A DNA stretch of 64,000 bases from a candidate division WOR-1 bacterium RIFOXYB2_FULL_46_45 (lineage in GTDB: Bacteria > Margulisbacteria > WOR-1 > XYC2-FULL-46-14), in NCBI GenBank assembly GCA_001771585.1, contig MEUE01000001.1, positions 434,001 to 498,000 on the forward strand, in the 5' to 3' direction. Shown here piece after piece: positions 11,383-34,929 of the stretch. The notes below the pieces were generated by a model. The model was not told the DNA's origin. It made no database searches and saw nothing but the letters and a program-made list of their open reading frames with translations. The position numbers and the translations under genes are program-made. Every line of letters starts with the position of its first letter. Within the stretch, counting starts at the first letter, position 1.

Positions 11383-12932
11383 TTTATTAGTTTATACTCC
11401 AGTGAATCGGAGAGCGCCTGCCAGCTGGCTTCAATGACATTGGTTGAGACCCCGACTGTTCCCCATGACCCGTCGTCATCCGACGATTCGATGATAACGC
11501 GGACCTTGGCGGCGGTCCCGGCGTTGGAATCCAGAACCCGGACCTTGTAATCGGTCAGTTTGACGCTGTCCAGTTCCGGAAAGTATTCCCCAAGCGCCGA
11601 CCGGAGCGCGTCGTCAAGCGCATTGATCGGCCCATCCCCCTCCCCAGTCGCTTCAACCTCATCCCCTTTTACTTTTAATTTTATTCTCGCTTCAACAAAG
11701 GCCGGGCTCAATCCCTCTTTTGTATTTTGGATCTGAAAATCAACCAATTCAAAGTGCGGCTTGGTCTTTTTTATCGCCTTCTTAACCAGCAGTTCAAACG
11801 AGGCCTCCCCCTCTTCAAATTGGTACCCTTGATGCTCCAAATCCTTAAGTGTCCGGATCAGCTCTTTTATCTCGGGGGTCTCTTTTTTGATATCAACCCC
11901 GTAATCTTTGGCTTTGTAAACCAGATTGGAAATCCCGGAGAGTTCGGAAACCGTCACGCGGCGCTCGTTCCCGACCGCTTCGGGCTTAATATGTTCGTAG
12001 GTCTCCGGATTTTTTGACACCGCGGAGACATGGATTCCTCCCTTGTGGGAAAAGGCGGAGCGGCCGACAAAGGGCTGGTGGGGCGACTGCGGCAGGTTGG
12101 CGATTTCGGCGATATGCCGGGATATTTCGGTCAACCGCGTAAGCTGTTTGTCGGAAACACAATTGATCCCCATTTTCAGTTTCAGGATCGGAATAATCGA
12201 ACAGAGGTTGGCGTTGCCGCAGCGCTCGCCCAAACCGTTGATTGTCCCCTGAACATGGCTTACGCCGCCATAGACCGCCATTTCCGATACCGAAACCGCG
12301 CATTCCGAATCGTTGTGGGCATGGATCCCGAGCGGTTTTTTTACTTTTATTTTTATTTCGCTTATAATTCTCTGCGCCTCGTGGCTTAATGTTCCGCCGT
12401 TGGTATCGCAGAGGCAGAGGATATCGGCGCCGGCCTCTTCGGCCGCCTTTAAACATTTTAGTGCATATTCCGGATTGGCCTTATATCCGTCAAAAAAATG
12501 TTCGGCGTCAAAGACAACTTCGCGGCCGGCTTTTTTTACGTAAGCGATCGTTTCTTTAATCATCAAAAGATTTTCTTCAAGCGTCGTTTTCAGCGCGTCG
12601 GTAACTTGAAAGTCCCAGCATTTTCCAAAGATGGCGACAACCGGCGTTTTTGCTTCAAGGAGCGTCGCAATATTTTTATCGTCTTTTATATTGATATTGG
12701 GACGGCGGGTGGATGAAAAAGCGACGATTTTGGCTTTTTTTAGCTTTACTTTTTTAATGGCCTGAAAAAATTCGATATCTTTCGGGTTTGAACCGGGCCA
12801 GCCCCCTTCTATATAATGGATCCCCAACTCGTCCAAAAGTTTAGCGATTTTGATCTTGTCCTGTACCGTAAAAGAGACCCCTTCGGTCTGGGCTCCGTCG
12901 CGTAAAGTGGTATCAAAGAGGGTAAAACTCAT
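11379..12932 (-). CDS. cimA: (R)-citramalate synthase
   Basis: It condenses pyruvate and acetyl-CoA to citramalate for threonine-independent isoleucine synthesis. The N-terminal HMGL-like barrel starts with [18 protein letters not shown] and has [26 protein letters not shown] and the metal motif GIHAHND. The C-terminal ~150 residues form a LeuA-type regulatory dimer domain. The [10 protein letters not shown] sequence and the length (517 aa) match the citramalate synthase subfamily rather than LeuA. It overlaps ispH and lysA by 4 nt each. Confidence 0.92.
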
Positions 12933-13762
12933 GATACTGAAATTATATCACAAATCTCTTTTATCACCCAATCGGGTGTGGAGGCTCCCGCGGTTATTCC
13001 AATTTTGTTTTTATCACGAAGGCGAGGAAATATTTCCTCGCCTTCCTTTTTGTTTTGGATTTGATATGTCGGCGTTCCGGTCTTGGCGCAGAGCTCGGTT
13101 AGGCGCTTGGTATTGGCGCTCATCTTGTCGCCAATAATGAGCATCACATCAACTTTTTTTGCCAAATCAATCGCCGCTTTTTGTCTTTTTTGGGTCGCTC
13201 CGCAAATTGTTTTGTGGACTATTAAATCTTTGACTTTTCCCTGAAGATATTTTACGATCTCGTTAAAATTTTCTTCCGATTGGGTGGTTTGAGCGACAAC
13301 GCCGACCTTGTCTTGAAGGCGAGAAAATATATTCTCGCCTTCATCTTTCGATGAAACCACAATCCCCTTCCCCTCCGACCACCCCAAAATCCCCTTCACC
13401 TCCGGATGGTTTTTATCCCCGATGATAATCAGCTGGTATCCTTTTTCAACCATCTCTTGAGCCAATTTCTGCGCCCGCTTCACCCAGGAGCAGGTGGTAT
13501 CGATTATTTTCAGCTTTTTCTTTTTTGCCTCTTCATAAACCGAAGGCGGTACCCCGTGCGCCGAAATGAGCAAAGTTTCTCCGTCCTTAATCTCATTGAT
13601 ATCTTTGATGACTTTGATCCCCTGTTGTTTCAGCTTTTCTACTACTTGGGTATTGTGGACCAGGTTGCCCAGCATATAGATATCGCGGTGTTCTTTTGCC
13701 TTGTTGTAGGCAGCGGAAACCCCTTCGCAAAAACCGGAAGAATCAGCTATGAAGATTTGCAT
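12929..13762 (-). CDS. ispH: 4-hydroxy-3-methylbut-2-enyl diphosphate reductase
   Basis: This [4Fe-4S] enzyme makes IPP and DMAPP in the last MEP step. The three cluster cysteines are in GFCEGV (C12), DTTCSWV and [35 protein letters not shown] and [12 protein letters not shown] are also present. Two loops, [10 protein letters not shown] and [10 protein letters not shown], are encoded by two copies of the same palindromic repeat. It heads a 12-kb minus-strand gene string. A -10 box lies 9 nt before the ATG. Its first 20 bases recur at 15462-15481. Confidence 0.95.
13019..13044. repeat. Palindromic repeat in ispH, copy 1
   Basis: A perfect 26-bp palindrome with arms AAGGCGAGGAAAT and ATTTCCTCGCCTT. 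It is read in frame as part of [13 protein letters not shown] in IspH. The second copy at 13315-13342 has the same arms and the same reading frame. Confidence 0.85.
13315..13342. repeat. Palindromic repeat in ispH, copy 2
   Basis: Arms GAAGGCGAGAA and TTCTCGCCTTC are perfectly inverted around a 6-nt AATATA centre. It encodes [13 protein letters not shown], nearly the same peptide as copy 1. This suggests two insertions of one mobile palindrome into loops of an essential enzyme. Confidence 0.85.
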
Positions 13763-13764
13763 CT
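13745..13764 (+). repeat. Direct repeat, left copy, flanking gene 13838-15463
   Basis: AGCTATGAAGATTTGCATCT is identical to 15462-15481. Here it is the antisense of the ispH start codon region (MQIFIA). The two copies bracket the whole inserted gene and its promoter. Confidence 0.85.
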
Positions 13765-13771
13765 ACCCTAT

Positions 13772-13777
13772 ATTGTA
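13772..13777 (-). promoter_or_regulatory. -10 box of the ispH operon
   Basis: The minus strand reads TACAAT, ending 9 nt before the ispH ATG, with no SD between. The -35 is not clear. A leader of about 2-3 nt is inferred. Confidence 0.4.
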
Positions 13778-13803
13778 ATACAAAAGCAAGGATAAAAAAC
13801 AGG

Positions 13804-13833
13804 TGAAATTTATTCAAAAATCTTCGGATAAAT
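13804..13833 (+). promoter_or_regulatory. Shared accessory-gene promoter motif, copy 5
   Basis: TGAAATTT at 13804-13811, a 14-nt spacer, then GGATAAAT at 13826-13833, 4 nt before the ATG at 13838. The spacing is identical to the other four copies. The GATA of the second box aligns exactly. Confidence 0.6.
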
Positions 13834-13837
13834 AAAT

Positions 13838-15463
13838 ATGGGAACAGCACTTTCGGCGGCAAGAAGCCAACAATCATTACTGGGCTGGCCAAATTACCCT
13901 GCAGTAGCCCGGCCGGCCCCGCTTAGGACTGTCAAAACAGGCTGGCAGGAGCAGGCCGTCCATGTTGTAAACAATTCCCCTACTCCGGCACAGGACCTGA
14001 TGCCGTTTTATGACACCCATCTTCCCCGCGAAGTTACTCAAGTCATAATTGAAGCGGTAAAAGCGGATGGCGCCGCTAAACTGGCCCAGGCAATTGGGGT
14101 CATCAGGAGCCCGGAGGTTGAAAGGATAGCAAAAGAGATTGAAGCGATATCAAAAGAACTGGCAGGCCAAGTCCTGGTCGGCAATGAAAATTTTTATAAT
14201 TTATGTTCAACCAATGCTTTAATAATCCCCGCTGAATTAGATAATGATAAAACAAAACCGCAGTTAGAAGAAGTTCTGCCTTTTCTTTTTGTCAGCGAAC
14301 TTAGGGACATGCAATTGCTAGTCGGGCTGGCACAAGACCCCAAACTAAGAAGAGAAACAATTAGCAAGCGGCAATCCTACGCGCCAACGGAAGAGGCAAA
14401 CGAATTACGGGCAAGATTGCTTGAAAAGATAAAAGAGTTAAGGAGCGAACTACTAAGAATAGAACATAACTGGGAGGCCCTGAAGCTTCCCCGTAAAGCA
14501 AAAAATAGTATTGCCAGCAGAAGAACCGCCAAAAGGACATCCATCTCTGCGCAGATGATTGCCCTCTACGATGTCGATAAACAAATCAGCCACGATATTG
14601 CACGCTGTTTTGGAATAAGGTTTAGTCCTTTCCATCCTTGTTTGCACGGAATTGATCTTCTTCATGGCAGGAAAATGACCTTCTCGTACCATCTCCTTGA
14701 TCTGTGCGAGTCTTATTCCCATCTTATGCATGTAGCCTCTGTTCTGGAAACAAATTACTGCCGCCTGGGGGGAACATTGTTTCCGATAGAAGATTTTGAT
14801 CCGGCCGTAATTGGAAAAACAGCGGCAATAAATGCCTCTTTCCGCAACATGATGCCGTTAAATACCGGATCGCCGTCAAAAGCCGGGCATGTAAACTATC
14901 AACCCGATCCGGCAACCCCTCGTATAACCGGCTATCCGTCTATGCTCGAAATACTTTTATATAACTTACTTAAAAACCCGACCAGATTTATTGAGGAAGA
15001 GAAAGAAAGAGATTTTTTTGTTGACCTTGAGATACGTCCCGACCGTAAATTCCCTGATGTAGCCATCGCCACGGTTGAAGATAACGCAACCGGGTTCAAT
15101 GTTCATGCACTATTCCGGCGGGCGGTCGAAGAGGCGGAAAAGCAGAAAGAAAACGGAACAATCAATCTCTATCCCATACTAAAAAGGATCCTGGCCTGTA
15201 AAGATAAACCTTTCATGTTCCGCGGATTTACCGTCGGAGAGCTGATGGATATGGCTCTTCTGCCACGGCTCTCCGCAAGCTATAGGGACACAATTTCCTC
15301 CGGCATAGGACTTGATGAAGCCAACCATATCTGCCAGTTAAACGGCTGGGACATTATGATTACAAACACAACCACCGGCGGAGCGCTGGTCTGGATAATT
15401 ATGGGAGAGAAAGAAAAACTGGACAAAATTATCGCGAGAGAATTGGGGCAATTCATCCTTTAG
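13838..15463 (+). CDS. Histidine-kinase-like protein with degenerate GHKL ATPase domain
   Basis: The C-terminal third matches the GHKL ATPase fold of histidine kinases. An N-box-like LEILLYNLLKNPTRF lies at 370-384, a G1-like VEDNATGF at 413-420, a G2-like SSGIGLDEANHICQLNGW at 487-504, and TTGGALVWI at 512-520. H252 in ISHDIARCF could be the phospho-acceptor H-box. Residues ~180-215 are Glu/Arg-rich and may form a coiled coil. There is no membrane segment or sensor domain, and motifs deviate from consensus, so activity is uncertain. No SD precedes the ATG, which lies just after the shared promoter motif. The gene is bracketed by a 20-bp direct repeat and overlaps dapL by 4 nt. Confidence 0.6.
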   Translation: MGTALSAARSQQSLLGWPNYPAVARPAPLRTVKTGWQEQAVHVVNNSPTPAQDLMPFYDTHLPREVTQVIIEAVKADGAAKLAQAIGVIRSPEVERIAKEIEAISKELAGQVLVGNENFYNLCSTNALIIPAELDNDKTKPQLEEVLPFLFVSELRDMQLLVGLAQDPKLRRETISKRQSYAPTEEANELRARLLEKIKELRSELLRIEHNWEALKLPRKAKNSIASRRTAKRTSISAQMIALYDVDKQISHDIARCFGIRFSPFHPCLHGIDLLHGRKMTFSYHLLDLCESYSHLMHVASVLETNYCRLGGTLFPIEDFDPAVIGKTAAINASFRNMMPLNTGSPSKAGHVNYQPDPATPRITGYPSMLEILLYNLLKNPTRFIEEEKERDFFVDLEIRPDRKFPDVAIATVEDNATGFNVHALFRRAVEEAEKQKENGTINLYPILKRILACKDKPFMFRGFTVGELMDMALLPRLSASYRDTISSGIGLDEANHICQLNGWDIMITNTTTGGALVWIIMGEKEKLDKIIARELGQFIL

Positions 15464-16608
15464 CTATGAAGATTTGCATCTTTTAATCTTTTGATAGCCA
15501 GCTTTATCCGCTCTTTTGGGATTGTAAACGCGAACCGGACATAGCCTTCGCCGGAGGGGCCGTAGCCGGAACCGGGGACAACCAGGATCCCGCATTTGTC
15601 GAGCAGTTTTTCGGTAAAAGAGGCGGAGGTTTCACCTTTTGGAACCGGAACCCACATATAAAAGGTCGCTTTCGGTTTCGGTAATTTAAAACCAAGTGAA
15701 GACAGCCCATCATATAAAACATCCCTTCTCTCTTGAAAAAACAGATTGTTTTGGGCAACACAATCCTGCGAAGAAGAGAGGGCCGTTATCGCCGCCAGCT
15801 GGATCGCTTTGAAAACACCGGAATCAATATTGGACTTGATCGTCGCCAGGGCCGAAACCGCGTCTTTATTCCCCACCGCCATCCCGATCCTCCACCCGGT
15901 CATATTATAAGTTTTTGAAAGCGAATGGAATTCGATCGTCACCTCTTTCGCCCCCGGAATTTCTAAAACACTAATCGGCTTATAGCCGTCATATCCCATC
16001 TCCGAATAAGCCAGATCGGAAACGAGCAGGATATTATTCTCTCTGCAAAAATTTACGCATTGCTCAAAAAAGTCCTTTTCTGCTACCGCTGCCGTCGGAT
16101 TGTTCGGATAATTGATATATAAAAGTTTGGCCCTCTTAACAATATTTGCCGGAATCTTTTTTAGATCAGGAACTAAAGGGATGAGATACGGTTCCCCGCC
16201 GGCCAGGATAGTAGAAATTTTATAGACCGGATAAGAGGGGTCGGGGACCAGCGTAACATCTCCCGGATCGACAAAAGCGAGCGGCAGATGGGCCAGCCCT
16301 TCTTTGGAACCGATCAGCGCGCAAACTTCGGTTGCAGGATCGAGCAAAACATTAAAACGCTTCTTATACCAGTCTGCGACCGCCTTGCGGAATAAGGGCT
16401 CTCCTTTTGAGGTTGGATAATTTTCCGCCTCGGTGGTCGGCAAAACCTCCCGCATTTTGGAAATAATATGTTCCGGCGTCGGCAGGTCCGGATCACCGAT
16501 CCCAAAATCGATAACGTCTATCCCTTTTTTGACAAGCTCCGCTTTCTTCTCTTCAATTTTTACGAACAGATACGGGGGGATTTTATCCAAACGTTTCGAT
16601 TTTCTCAT
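15460..16608 (-). CDS. dapL: LL-diaminopimelate aminotransferase
   Basis: This class I/II PLP aminotransferase makes LL-DAP directly from tetrahydrodipicolinate. The start RLDKIPPYLFVKIEEKKAEL, FGIGDPDLPTP, NYPNNPTAA, the PLP-lysine region FHSLSKTYNMTGWRIGMAVGN and the final YVRFAFT are typical of DapL. dapF follows 4 nt overlapped upstream (16605), so the pair is one operon for the DapL branch. The last codons (DANLHS) are written on the right copy of the 20-bp repeat. Confidence 0.9.
   Translation of the reverse strand: MRKSKRLDKIPPYLFVKIEEKKAELVKKGIDVIDFGIGDPDLPTPEHIISKMREVLPTTEAENYPTSKGEPLFRKAVADWYKKRFNVLLDPATEVCALIGSKEGLAHLPLAFVDPGDVTLVPDPSYPVYKISTILAGGEPYLIPLVPDLKKIPANIVKRAKLLYINYPNNPTAAVAEKDFFEQCVNFCRENNILLVSDLAYSEMGYDGYKPISVLEIPGAKEVTIEFHSLSKTYNMTGWRIGMAVGNKDAVSALATIKSNIDSGVFKAIQLAAITALSSSQDCVAQNNLFFQERRDVLYDGLSSLGFKLPKPKATFYMWVPVPKGETSASFTEKLLDKCGILVVPGSGYGPSGEGYVRFAFTIPKERIKLAIKRLKDANLHS
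15462..15481 (+). repeat. Direct repeat, right copy, flanking gene 13838-15463
   Basis: An exact 20-bp match to 13745-13764. It starts within the stop codon of the kinase-like gene and covers the last codons of dapL. The length and placement resemble a target-site duplication around the inserted segment. Confidence 0.85.
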
Positions 16609-31994: not shown

Positions 31995-32004
31995 ACACAA
32001 AACG

Positions 32005-32022
32005 GGCGGCATAATTGCTGGG
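32005..32022 (+). repeat. 18-bp repeat GGCGGCATAATTGCTGGG, copy 1
   Basis: Identical to 32633-32650 in the same orientation and one mismatch from 34077-34060 (minus). Two copies bracket element A. The spacing GG-N10-GC resembles a sigma-54 -24/-12 promoter. Confidence 0.75.
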
Positions 32023-32626
32023 AGTATGAAGAGAAGACTCGAATTTCTATCACAAATCAATAATCCCGAATGAATTCGAATGAAAGGGTCTCAAATAAAA
32101 GTCCCAAATCCTCGAATTTAATCTCGAAGGAGGAAATAAAATGGAAGAAAAAATTGTGTACAAAGAACTTAGCTATAGAATCATGGGAATTCTTTTTGAT
32201 GTCCACAATACCATGGGGGGCGGCTATCAAGAAAAATATTACCAAAAAGCCATTAAATTATCCCTTGTTGAACAAAAAATCCCCTTCCTTGAACAAGTCC
32301 GGACAGACCTTGTCGTGCACGGGCAAATAATTGGCAGATATTATATTGACTTTGTGATTGATCACAAGGTTGTGCTGGAAATTAAGTCAAGAATAAATTT
32401 CTCAAAAAGAGATATTATACAAGTGTTGGGATATCTAAGGCAAAGCAACCTGAATCTTGGCATTTTGGCTTCCTTTTCAACAGACGGCTTAAAATACAAG
32501 CGTATTTTGAAAGGGTTCGAGAATCGATTCGAGCATTCGAGTCCTTAATTCGGGACACGCCCTGTTCGCATTGATTCGAGAGGTTGATTCGTGATAGAAA
32601 TTCGGGACTATTTCCCCCATATTCCC
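32020..32626 (+). mobile_element. Inverted-repeat element A carrying a GxxExxY gene
   Basis: Terminal inverted repeats of ~41 nt start GGGAGTATG (32020) and, on the complement of the right end, GGGAATATG (32626). Both continue into CGAATTTCTATCAC(A/G)AATCAA. The single gene inside is the GxxExxY protein at 32141. There is no transposase. A deleted copy in the opposite orientation lies at 33843-34062. The flanking 18-bp direct repeat could be a target duplication. Confidence 0.75.
32141..32548 (+). CDS. GxxExxY protein
   Basis: The signature is G-G-G-Y-Q-E-K-Y-Y-Q-K in NTMGGGYQEKYYQKAI (the GxxExxY motif), then FVIDHKVVLEIKS and SKRDIIQVLGYLRQSNLNLGILASF. This fits the TIGR04256-type family, with the D/E-x-K core typical of PD-(D/E)XK nuclease-like folds. 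These 120-135-aa proteins occur in many candidate phyla next to repeats, and their function is unknown. GGAGG at 32129 marks the start. Its surrounding inverted repeats make it the only cargo of element A. Confidence 0.9.
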   Translation: MEEKIVYKELSYRIMGILFDVHNTMGGGYQEKYYQKAIKLSLVEQKIPFLEQVRTDLVVHGQIIGRYYIDFVIDHKVVLEIKSRINFSKRDIIQVLGYLRQSNLNLGILASFSTDGLKYKRILKGFENRFEHSSP

Positions 32627-32630
32627 AAAA

Positions 32631-32647
32631 TTGGCGGCATAATTGCT
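32631..32647 (+). promoter_or_regulatory. Sigma-54-like promoter before the NtrC-type gene
   Basis: TTGGCGGCATAATTGCT matches the -24/-12 pattern YTGGC-N7-TTGCW with GG and GC exactly 10 nt apart. The predicted start lies ~12 nt on, leaving a short leader with AAGGAG before the ATG at 32682. The sequence is also part of the 18-bp repeat, so it may be coincidental. Confidence 0.45.
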
Positions 32648-32650
32648 GGG
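32633..32650 (+). repeat. 18-bp repeat GGCGGCATAATTGCTGGG, copy 2
   Basis: Identical to 32005-32022, at the right flank of element A. It overlaps the sigma-54-like motif in front of the NtrC-type regulator. Confidence 0.75.
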
Positions 32651-32681: not shown

Positions 32682-33839
32682 ATGCCTAAAAATAAGCCAA
32701 AAATCCTCATTATCGAAGATGAAGATGTCATGCAGCAAACCCTCAAATCAATCCTAAAAAGAGATTATGACCCGCGCCCGGTCGACTCCGGCTTTATCGG
32801 GGTGGAAGAGGTCAAGAAGGGAGATTATTCAACCATTCTGCTCGACCTGTGCCTGCCAAAGATGGACGGGGTTGAAACCCTAAAGAAAATCAAAGAAGTT
32901 GATAAAAATATCCCGATCATCATCGTCTCCGCTTCAAAAGACATCAAGTCGGCGGTAGAATGCATGAAGCTCTCCGCTTTTGACTATGTCTCAAAACCGT
33001 TTGAAGTGGACGAACTGCTGGCCGTGATCGAAAAGGCGCAGAAGCTTTTTGATCTCCAGCGCGAAAACAATTATTTAAAAGAGAGCTTGAAGGAAGCGAC
33101 CCGCTATTCCGACCTGATCGGAGAGTCGGAAAAGATAAAGAAACTTCGCGAGATGATAAAATCAATTGCCCCTACCCCCTCTACTGTTTTGATAACCGGC
33201 GAATCGGGATCAGGGAAAGAGATCGTGGCCAAAGAGATCCATGCCAATTCTACCCGTTCCAACCAGCCCTTTATCGCCATAAACTGCGCCGCCATCCCCG
33301 AGAACCTGCTTGAATCGGAGCTCTTCGGCCATGAGCGGGGATCATTTACCGGGGCGGTGGAACGGCGGATCGGCAAATTCGAGCTGGCGAACTACGGCAC
33401 CCTTTTTCTGGATGAGATCGGCTGTATGTCGGGGGCGATGCAGTCAAAATTACTCCGTGTCCTTGAAGAGCGGACGATCCAGCGGGTTGGAGGGAACACC
33501 CCCATTTCAATTGATGTCCGGATCATCGCCGCCACCAATATCGATTTTGAGAAAGAGATAAGTGAAAAACGGTTCCGGCAGGACCTGTTTTATCGGCTGA
33601 ATGTTATTCCGGTGGCACTGGCGCCTTTAAGGGAGAGAAAAGAGGACATCCCGCTTTTTGTCGAATATTTTATCGGAAAATTCAACGCGGTCTTGAATAA
33701 AAAAGTCAAAGGTATCTCCCCCGAAGCGCTGGCCCAGCTGATCAATTATCCCTTCCCCGGAAATGTGCGGGAATTGCAGAACCTAATCGAGCGGGCAGTA
33801 GTCCTCTGCGGCGGGAATATGATTAAGGCGGTCTTTTAA
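32682..33839 (+). CDS. NtrC-family sigma-54-dependent response regulator lacking DNA-binding domain
   Basis: The receiver domain (residues 1-120) has the phospho-acceptor D55 in [11 protein letters not shown] and K107 in FDYVSKPFE. The AAA+ domain shows Walker [23 protein letters not shown] (the sigma-54 GAFTGA loop with Ser), Walker [10 protein letters not shown] and the sensor [16 protein letters not shown]. The protein stops at 385 aa just after this, so the usual Fis-type helix-turn-helix is missing. It may act from solution or be a truncated gene. AAGGAG fixes the start. It lies between inverted copies A and B of the element. Confidence 0.9.
33762..33839 (+). repeat. 3' end of NtrC-type gene, first copy of a 78-bp duplication
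   Basis: Encodes [19 protein letters not shown].. and the stop. It matches 34095-34172 with 10 substitutions in 78 positions. All but one (Met to Thr) are synonymous. Confidence 0.9.
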
Positions 33840-33842
33840 GCT

Positions 33843-34062
33843 GGGAATAGTCCCGAATTTTTATCTCAAATCAACCTCTCAAATCAATGCGAATAGGGCC
33901 GGTCCCGAATTAAGGACTCGAATGCTCGAATCGATTCTCGAACCCTTTCAAGCTTCGAGATTAAATTCGAGGATTTGGGACTTTTATTTGAGACCCTTTC
34001 ATTCGAATTCATTCGGGATTATTGATTTGCGATAAGAATTCGAGTCTTCTTTCACTACTCCC
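33843..34062 (-). mobile_element. Element B, internally deleted inverted copy of element A
   Basis: The reverse complement matches the left ~115 nt and right ~100 nt of element A, joined directly at GAAG/CTTGAAAGGG where A has the GxxExxY gene. The ends GGGAGTAG and GGGAATAG form terminal inverted repeats. It sits directly after the stop codon of the NtrC-type gene. It has no coding capacity and looks like a MITE-type derivative. Confidence 0.75.
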
Positions 34063-34077
34063 AGCAATTTTGCCGCC
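34060..34077 (-). repeat. 18-bp repeat GGCGGCAAAATTGCTGGG, copy 3
   Basis: One mismatch from copies at 32005 and 32633, in inverted orientation. It flanks element B on the same side as copy 1 flanks element A. Confidence 0.7.
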
Positions 34078-34094
34078 AGTTTTAGCTAAAAAAG

Positions 34095-34172
34095 AATGTG
34101 CGGGAATTACAGAACCTAATTGAACGGGCAGTCGTCTTGTGCGGTGGGAATACGATTAAAGCAGTCTTTTAA
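34095..34172 (+). pseudogene. Remnant of a second NtrC-type gene (3' end only)
   Basis: The frame reads [25 protein letters not shown] and stop, matching the end of the gene at 32682. Nine of ten nucleotide differences are silent, so the two sequences diverged while both were translated. Only this 26-codon tail remains, right after element B. It overlaps the end of the patatin gene by 17 nt. Confidence 0.7.
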
Positions 34173-34929
34173 TCTCCGCCAGTTTCTTTTCCGCAGCATG
34201 TTCTCCGGCCTTGATCAGAGCCGCGGCTTTGTTGAAATCAGTATGCCAGATGTCCGGTGAAATGTCCGGTTCAATCAAAATATCGGCCGCTTCCCTTTGA
34301 GGAGCGGTCAGCTTCTTTATCGCCAGATCGATCGCCCGCCCCATGATTCGAACCGGATTGTCAGGATCGCGCTTCAAACTGTGCGACGGGATAACATCTA
34401 CCGCAATCCGAATATCCGTTTCAAGCAGGCCGACCGGAAGATTATCGGCGCCCCCCCCGTCAATCAGCGTCCTCCCCCCAATTTTTTTGGGGGTAAAAAT
34501 CCCGGGAAAAGCACAACTGGCGGAAACCGCGCGGCTGACTCTGCCGCTTTTTAAAACCACCCGCTCCCCCGTCTTTATATCCTGTGCCACCATCACAATC
34601 GGAATATTGGCCTCGTCAAAATTGACCTTTCCGATCTCACGTTCGATTAACTGGACGATCTCATCCTCCGCGAAAGGATTGATCTGGCTGACCGAAACGG
34701 TAAAAATATTGAAAAATTTCTTTTTGGCGATATCTTCCATGTACTCGGGGTCGATCCCAAAAGCAAAGAGGGAACCGATCACAGCACCCGAAGAAGTGGC
34801 AGAGATAAAATCGATTGGGATCTTATTTTTTTTCAGCACTTTGAGGACGCCGATATGGGCCAGTCCCCTGGCCACCCCGCCGCCCAGCGCCAGCCCAATC
34901 TTCTTTTGGAACCAGGGAAGTTTTATCAT
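34156..34929 (-). CDS. Patatin-like phospholipase (RssA/YchK type)
   Basis: A serine acyl hydrolase of the patatin family acting on lipids. The oxyanion hole GGGVARGLAHIGVL is at residues 16-29. The nucleophile elbow is ISATSSGAVIG (A-x-S-x-G, where most have G-x-S-x-G). The catalytic Asp is in LIDGGGADNLPVG. The length (257 aa) fits single-domain bacterial patatins. It overlaps serA by 4 nt and ends that operon. Confidence 0.9.
   Translation of the reverse strand: MIKLPWFQKKIGLALGGGVARGLAHIGVLKVLKKNKIPIDFISATSSGAVIGSLFAFGIDPEYMEDIAKKKFFNIFTVSVSQINPFAEDEIVQLIEREIGKVNFDEANIPIVMVAQDIKTGERVVLKSGRVSRAVSASCAFPGIFTPKKIGGRTLIDGGGADNLPVGLLETDIRIAVDVIPSHSLKRDPDNPVRIMGRAIDLAIKKLTAPQREAADILIEPDISPDIWHTDFNKAAALIKAGEHAAEKKLAEIKRLL

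Follow-up and report, generated by a model that had tools for sequence, protein, structure and literature searches.

In Arabidopsis, single non-transposon genes that have transposed are described as lying between direct repeats which are homologous to the target site and mostly genic, and the authors of that account propose excision between tandem duplicates followed by reinsertion of the resulting circle (Woodhouse et al. 2010, PMC2869330). Here we consider a comparable arrangement in a 64,000-nucleotide stretch of the genome of a candidate division WOR-1 bacterium (RIFOXYB2_FULL_46_45, contig MEUE01000001.1, positions 434,001 to 498,000; hereafter the window), in which a gene for a histidine-kinase-like protein lies between ispH and dapL and is flanked by a perfect 20-bp direct repeat. 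Both systems present target-homologous, genic direct repeats around lone genes, yet they differ in that the Arabidopsis host is a eukaryote and ours a bacterium, that our repeats measure 18-38 bp, and that donor copies were not found (the only candidate for the gene in the window is a 30%-identical paralog in its own genome).

Two kinds of bacterial element invite comparison as well. Insertion sequences share with this locus a direct repeat that immediately adjoins the insert, whereas here a transposase is lacking, only one element has inverted ends, and the duplications are long and variable. Integrative elements at the 3' ends of genes share direct repeats of 18-37 bp, several of which lie at such ends in our material (guaA, rfbC, tyrA), but our inserts carry no recombinase, are merely 0.6-1.7 kb long, have a different core at each site, and also target gene starts and promoters. 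Our literature search returned the plant parallel but no bacterial account of single-gene insertion of this type.

A kinase-like gene between two copies of a 20-bp repeat

The features of the locus are as follows (window coordinates).

12929..13762, minus strand: ispH (LytB), 277 aa
13745..13764: repeat copy 1, whose minus strand reads AG+ATGCAAATCTTCATAGCT, the ispH start (MQIFIA)
13765..15461: DNA between the copies, 1697 bp, a putative insert judging from the repeat and the parallel cases
13772..13777, minus strand: probable ispH -10 (TACAAT), within the insert and 9 nt from the ATG, proposed from its sequence and from comparable TATAAT-N6..8-start arrangements in relatives
13804..13834, plus strand: sigma-28-like regulon promoter TGAAATTT-N14-GGATAAATA (weak -10 variant), of a class-wide motif with 0 control hits
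13838..15463, plus strand: atypical histidine-kinase-like gene, 541 aa, with N-box LEILLYNLLKN, G1 VEDNATGF, G2 SSGIGLDEA and a conserved H252
15460..16608, minus strand: dapL (LL-diaminopimelate aminotransferase-like), 382 aa, tail KRLKDANLHS
15462..15481: repeat copy 2, whose minus strand holds the last dapL codons (DANLHS) and the first base of the stop

The 20-mer AGCTATGAAGATTTGCATCT occurs at 13745-13764 and at 15462-15481 with 20/20 identity, and cannot be extended in either direction (flank identity 0.12 and 0.17). Even when 3 mismatches are permitted the window holds no third copy, and the pair appeared in none of 100 dinucleotide-preserving shuffles. Besides this pair, the window has repeats of at least 18 bp within 6 kb of each other only in the promoter motif and in an 18-mer that surrounds a GxxExxY gene, discussed below. 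The original prediction was therefore correct as to the position and identity of the repeat, chance being excluded by the shuffles and the window-wide uniqueness, and also in placing a single gene with its promoter between the copies, since the 541-aa open reading frame (ORF) is the sole substantial gene there and is preceded by TGAAATTT-N14-GGATAAATA.

The same 20-mer is read in two frames, at the 5' end of ispH and the 3' end of dapL. On the minus strand, copy 1 forms the ispH start (ATG CAA ATC TTC ATA GCT, MQIFIA) and copy 2 the dapL end (GAT GCA AAT CTT CAT AGC T-AA, DANLHS and stop), while the dapL TAA (15460-15462) and the TAG of the kinase-like gene (15461-15463) share the first bases of copy 2. 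When the insert and one copy are deleted in silico, DapL (382 aa) and IspH (277 aa) are both identical to the present proteins; the collapsed genes overlap by 20 nt and dapL ends at a TGA inside ispH. Because both genes are left unchanged, the arrangement is scarless and matches the expectation for a single 20-bp overlap that served as target. It had been proposed that after insertion the repeat supplies the last codons of dapL, which is true, but the collapse yields the same DapL before and after.

The repeat is flush with the insert, as in a target-site duplication. The insert carries no terminal inverted repeats (the longest exact terminal match is 6 nt) and no transposase, the kinase-like gene being its sole substantial ORF. 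We consider insertion with target duplication, transposase-free as far as can be seen and probably achieved by staggered-break fill-in or template switching, to be the best reading of the locus, with a probability of roughly 0.6.

Repeat-flanked single genes elsewhere in the lineage

This reading is strengthened by parallel cases. Exact direct repeats of at least 18 bp with unrelated flanks were sought around ORFs, with inverted pairs as control, in 666 kb of this genome (G000; the window and a further 602 kb, together 39% of the total, in part picked around regulon promoters). Eight isolated repeats of this kind were found, against 0 in shuffles, and five first-order Markov shuffles of the 666 kb gave no exact direct pair of at least 18 bp at 300-4000 bp spacing. 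Inverted pairs of at least 18 bp were confined to the GxxExxY copies and one paralog cluster. Seven of the single-unit inserts are firm and one, L193, is doubtful, its 19 bp amounting to a ribosome-binding site plus ATGGC; repeats span 18-37 bp, and the duplication lengths (18, 20, 20, 22, 24, 28 and 37 bp) are not constant. Six further candidates (L205, L209, L210, L267, L269, L273) were rejected as paralog or array effects. No insert examined contains a transposase or an integrase gene, and no end sequence is common among them. The parallel loci outside the window, in this genome unless another is named, are listed below.

L200 5588-7158: AAA_14/DUF4143 ATPase gene, 24-bp direct repeat (38 bp with one mismatch)
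L201 3469-4805: second AAA_14/DUF4143 ATPase gene, 37-bp direct repeat whose left copy is half a promoter
L207: sigma-28-like regulon gene between tyrA and pcm, 20-bp direct repeat
L257 15620-16399 (G000:C1): MNT-HEPN gene pair behind guaA, 28-bp duplication of the guaA 3' end
L262: nucleotidyltransferase gene, 22-bp direct repeat whose left copy is half a hairpin
L326 13038-14066 (G001:C79): rfbC tail replaced by insert sequence, old tail PTLKDADLF and stop stranded 1 kb downstream
L310 12030-13368 (G004): AAA_14/DUF4143 gene, outer decayed copy of the mdh start

Beyond this genome, 378 kb of G001, the one further member of the family in our sample, yielded two clear cases, one of which is a regulon gene (L322); three other candidates there (L329, L334, L336) were rejected as conserved starts of one gene family. 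One case each was found in G011 (398 kb) and G004 (100 kb, a third AAA_14/DUF4143 gene), and no genuine case in 250 kb of E. coli MG1655. The AAA_14/DUF4143 ATPase genes that lie between 20-37 bp direct repeats now number three, in two genomes (L200, L201, L310), as if these genes were mobile.

At several of these loci a gene end lies stranded beyond the insert. Behind guaA, the downstream, outer copy reads KPPSTIEWE, the guaA tail, and retains its own stop, TGA. At L207 the pcm leader reads KAKEFRDGLFRTTPENG and a stop, its TGA overlapping the pcm ATG, and the TyrA tail motif AKEFRDGLF, conserved in relatives, is stranded beyond the regulon gene. The rfbC gene of G001 today ends in DKDKVHPGIKGAIQF and a stop, and its stranded copy reads DKDKVHPTLKDADLF and a stop; the rejoined RfbC protein aligns to solved RmlC chains, some of them through the last residue. 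In G004 the decayed outer copy of the mdh start reads MPKITVVGAVNVGEA. The repeats are thus homologous to the target site and genic, at the ends of guaA, tyrA, rfbC, mdh and dapL/ispH. Since the outer copies at L257, L207, G001 rfbC and G004 mdh continue as the old gene, these sequences show that target duplication occurs in this lineage.

The dapL/ispH junction in relatives

Our class sample comprises 31 genomes, none of the same genus, and a search for closer relatives among GTDB contigs returned none, just a distant spirochaete. The genes dapL and ispH adjoin in most class genomes. According to junction readings made partly by eye, their spacing is -4 to +5 nt in six relatives (G010, G014, G005, G011, G028, G018) and 27 and 57 nt in two more, whereas occupied gaps hold unrelated genes (carotenoid-type, Ser/Thr-kinase-like, glycogen-synthase-like, and a 613-aa ORF). 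One same-genus pair shows both states, G028 being empty (1 nt) and G022 holding the 613-aa ORF, and occupancy is scattered on the IspH tree, the deep support of which is weak. As the gaps are variously empty or filled with unrelated genes, the junction is often invaded. Comparison with relatives that lack the gene, suggested originally as the decisive check, thus gave near-abutting genes in six class relatives but no empty site with a single 20-mer.

How the insert may have arisen

The repeat, the scarless collapse and an anatomy that recurs at several loci with stranded gene ends are directly seen, and by analogy we infer that the dapL/ispH locus arose like the parallel loci. A piece of ~1.7 kb, consisting of the sigma-28-like promoter and the histidine-kinase-like gene, would have entered a 20-nt overlap between the dapL end and the ispH start, duplicating the 20 bp and leaving both housekeeping genes intact. 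Copy 2 would have been retained as the dapL tail, with a new stop gained from the insert, and copy 1 as the ispH start, with a new upstream region from the same source. After joining the captured fragment, repair or replication would go back 18-38 nt upstream (more in the decayed cases), and this return step may be either staggered-break fill-in or template switching. Ku-type end joining was rejected, as a Ku gene is absent from all 31 class genomes (0/31; a B. subtilis control was positive).

A number of observations weigh against this reading. No empty site was found in a close relative, and the sole same-family genome, G001, is occupied by two unrelated ORFs behind the same type of promoter, with no repeat. 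The 20-nt overlap is absent from all relatives examined, repeats around other occupied dapL/ispH junctions are at null level, and the base composition of the insert is flat, with no foreign mark. The link to the regulon is modest, as dozens of regulon promoters lack repeats and the regulon inserts number three. Lastly, G001, G006, G008 and G020 have an antisense sigma-28-like promoter 30-80 nt away from their ispH start, so the promoter could predate the kinase insert. The claim of an insertion with a duplicated target stands as the best reading, reinforced by the parallel loci and their fossils, but lacks its decisive empty site.

The last of these observations suggests a different history, in which the antisense sigma-28-like and ispH promoters are ancestral between the genes, the gene was swapped later, and the dapL 20-mer arose when the new gene end was joined to dapL, as a short patch templated by the ispH start. 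If the antisense promoter is ancestral in the family, the insert would not have arrived as one unit bounded by the 20-mers. Beyond the four relatives named, a degenerate promoter copy occurs in G007, what the promoter drives in some relatives is a conserved small RNA and not a gene, and comparison with relatives shows the length of the DapL tail to be native. However, a templated 20-nt patch would then have to yield, by good fortune, a native-length DapL tail complete with stop, at the parallel loci the target is plainly duplicated and fossils are left stranded, and junction occupancy is scattered on the tree; on balance we think such a history unlikely.

Under site-specific integration the repeats would be att cores, left by a tyrosine recombinase that works in trans or has meanwhile been lost. 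Their lengths (18-37 bp) suit such cores, and the targets include several 3' ends of genes (dapL, guaA, tyrA, rfbC), guaA serving as an integration site elsewhere. Yet each repeat differs in sequence, none of these short inserts holds an integrase gene, and the targets also include a gene start (L310), a promoter (L201) and terminator hairpins (L262), all of which renders this explanation distinctly improbable.

One element in the window, which exists in two copies, suggests transposition, with long target duplications produced by a transposase supplied in trans.

32005..32022: left copy of the 18-bp direct repeat around a GxxExxY gene, a parallel case
32141..32548, plus strand: GxxExxY / PDDEXK_3 gene, 135 aa
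32633..32650: right copy of the same 18-bp repeat
33762..33842: left copy of an 81-nt direct repeat (86%), the 3' end of an NtrC-type regulator gene
33843..34083, minus strand: second GxxExxY copy, inverted and internally deleted, which also holds chromosomal sequence flanking copy 1
34095..34175: right copy of the 81-nt repeat

The two copies (31999-32650 and 33762-34175, the second with no ORF) belong to the sole insert with inverted ends, near-terminal inverted repeats CGAATTTCTATCAC of 14 nt. The second copy, however, includes ~24 nt that originate outside copy 1 and lies within a gene end of 81 nt that is itself duplicated, features that suggest sloppy copying and not the work of a recombinase. 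As the other inserts have no terminal inverted repeats and duplication length varies, we see only a slim chance for a transposase in trans. Coincidence between two similar reading-frame edges, to which the tendency of ispH starts to yield xAN-like tails in the dapL frame might lend some colour, is hardly credible given 20/20 identity flush with the gene edges and 0 occurrences in shuffles.

The wider finding is that transposase-less insertion of single genes is recurrent in this lineage, which suggests that bacteria can acquire genes one by one along a route not yet described. More tentatively, and at somewhat less than even odds, this may be a general, transposase-free process throughout this uncultured class that inserts lone genes with their own promoters into gene edges, duplicates 18-40 or more bp of target, and acts as a main route of gene turnover there, its cargo being regulon orphans, AAA_14/DUF4143 ATPases, toxin-antitoxin-like pairs and nucleotidyltransferases. 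Lone orphan and toxin-antitoxin-like genes are common in bacteria, yet how one lands between housekeeping genes without a transposon can seldom be seen. In the present case the scars can be read, as target duplications of variable length and stranded gene ends; they open the joining step to testing, and other genomes can be searched for repeats in the same way.

The inserted gene and the sigma-28-like regulon

The 541-aa protein has a 30%-identical paralog in its own genome, homologs in G024 and G026, and a weak match in G009. An HD motif (H252), the N-box LEILLYNLLKN, G1 VEDNATGF and G2 SSGIGLDE are common to four homologous sequences. In its N, G1 and G2 boxes, and in the conserved H252 that falls within a long helix, the protein recalls the DHp-CA core of sensor histidine kinases, and a low-confidence predicted structure (pLDDT 55) matches histidine-kinase cores (HK853, DivL and others). 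It differs from these kinases in that Pfam returned no HisKA-type domain for the protein or its homologs (only the HD motif at H252 is conserved), that HATPase_c is sub-threshold (E 0.07; over the cut-off in one homolog), and that no recognised sensor domain was found. From sequence, "kinase-like" seems a fair label.

The promoter motif TGAAATTT-N14-CGATATATA was found in 30/31 class genomes (28 sites in the present genome, 80 in G001), and its reversed control gave 0 hits. It resembles sigma-28 (FliA/SigD) sites. Regulon genes with a flanking repeat occur at three loci (the window, L207, and L322 in G001). The proposal that the regulon spread by this route thus holds for these three loci only, as most such inserts are non-regulon and most sampled regulon promoters have no flanking repeat; likewise, the advice to look for repeats around other regulon members was rewarded at L207 and L322, but most sampled promoters lack one.

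Near ispH in some relatives, the antisense promoter drives a conserved small RNA and no gene. This RNA, of ~60-80 nt, lies behind TGAAATTT-N14-CGATATATATATAG promoters and carries the motifs CATACCTT, TTTCACC and TCGA, as well as a terminator hairpin with a CCTGTT loop and compensatory changes in 7/11 pairs. Loci include L039, L095, L099, L053, L097, L041, L042 and L047, with G000:C3:375327 and C1:1009259 in the present genome; model matches occur in 26/31 class genomes, and an Rfam search with the RNA gave none over threshold. In G001, a paralogous family with the conserved start K[LI]ISFD stands behind regulon promoters (L329, L336, L334, L007 117-956), and one ORF resembling it sits between dapL and ispH.

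Further observations

At L273 8740-10150 (G000:C3) there is an array of 26-74-bp repeats with AGAGAGGG palindromes. The ispH genes of several relatives have TATAAT 6-8 nt before the start codon (L007 1480-1501, L012, L013, L009, L024), a spacing which suggests that their ispH mRNA may be leaderless or nearly so. The ispH gene of the window holds two in-frame palindromes of ~28 nt, at 13018-13045 (GAAGGCGAGGAAATATTTCCTCGCCTTC) and 13315-13342 (an 89% copy). They encode EGE[EN]IF[PS]RL, the second peptide is missing from the G001 protein, and they resemble in-gene palindromic elements.

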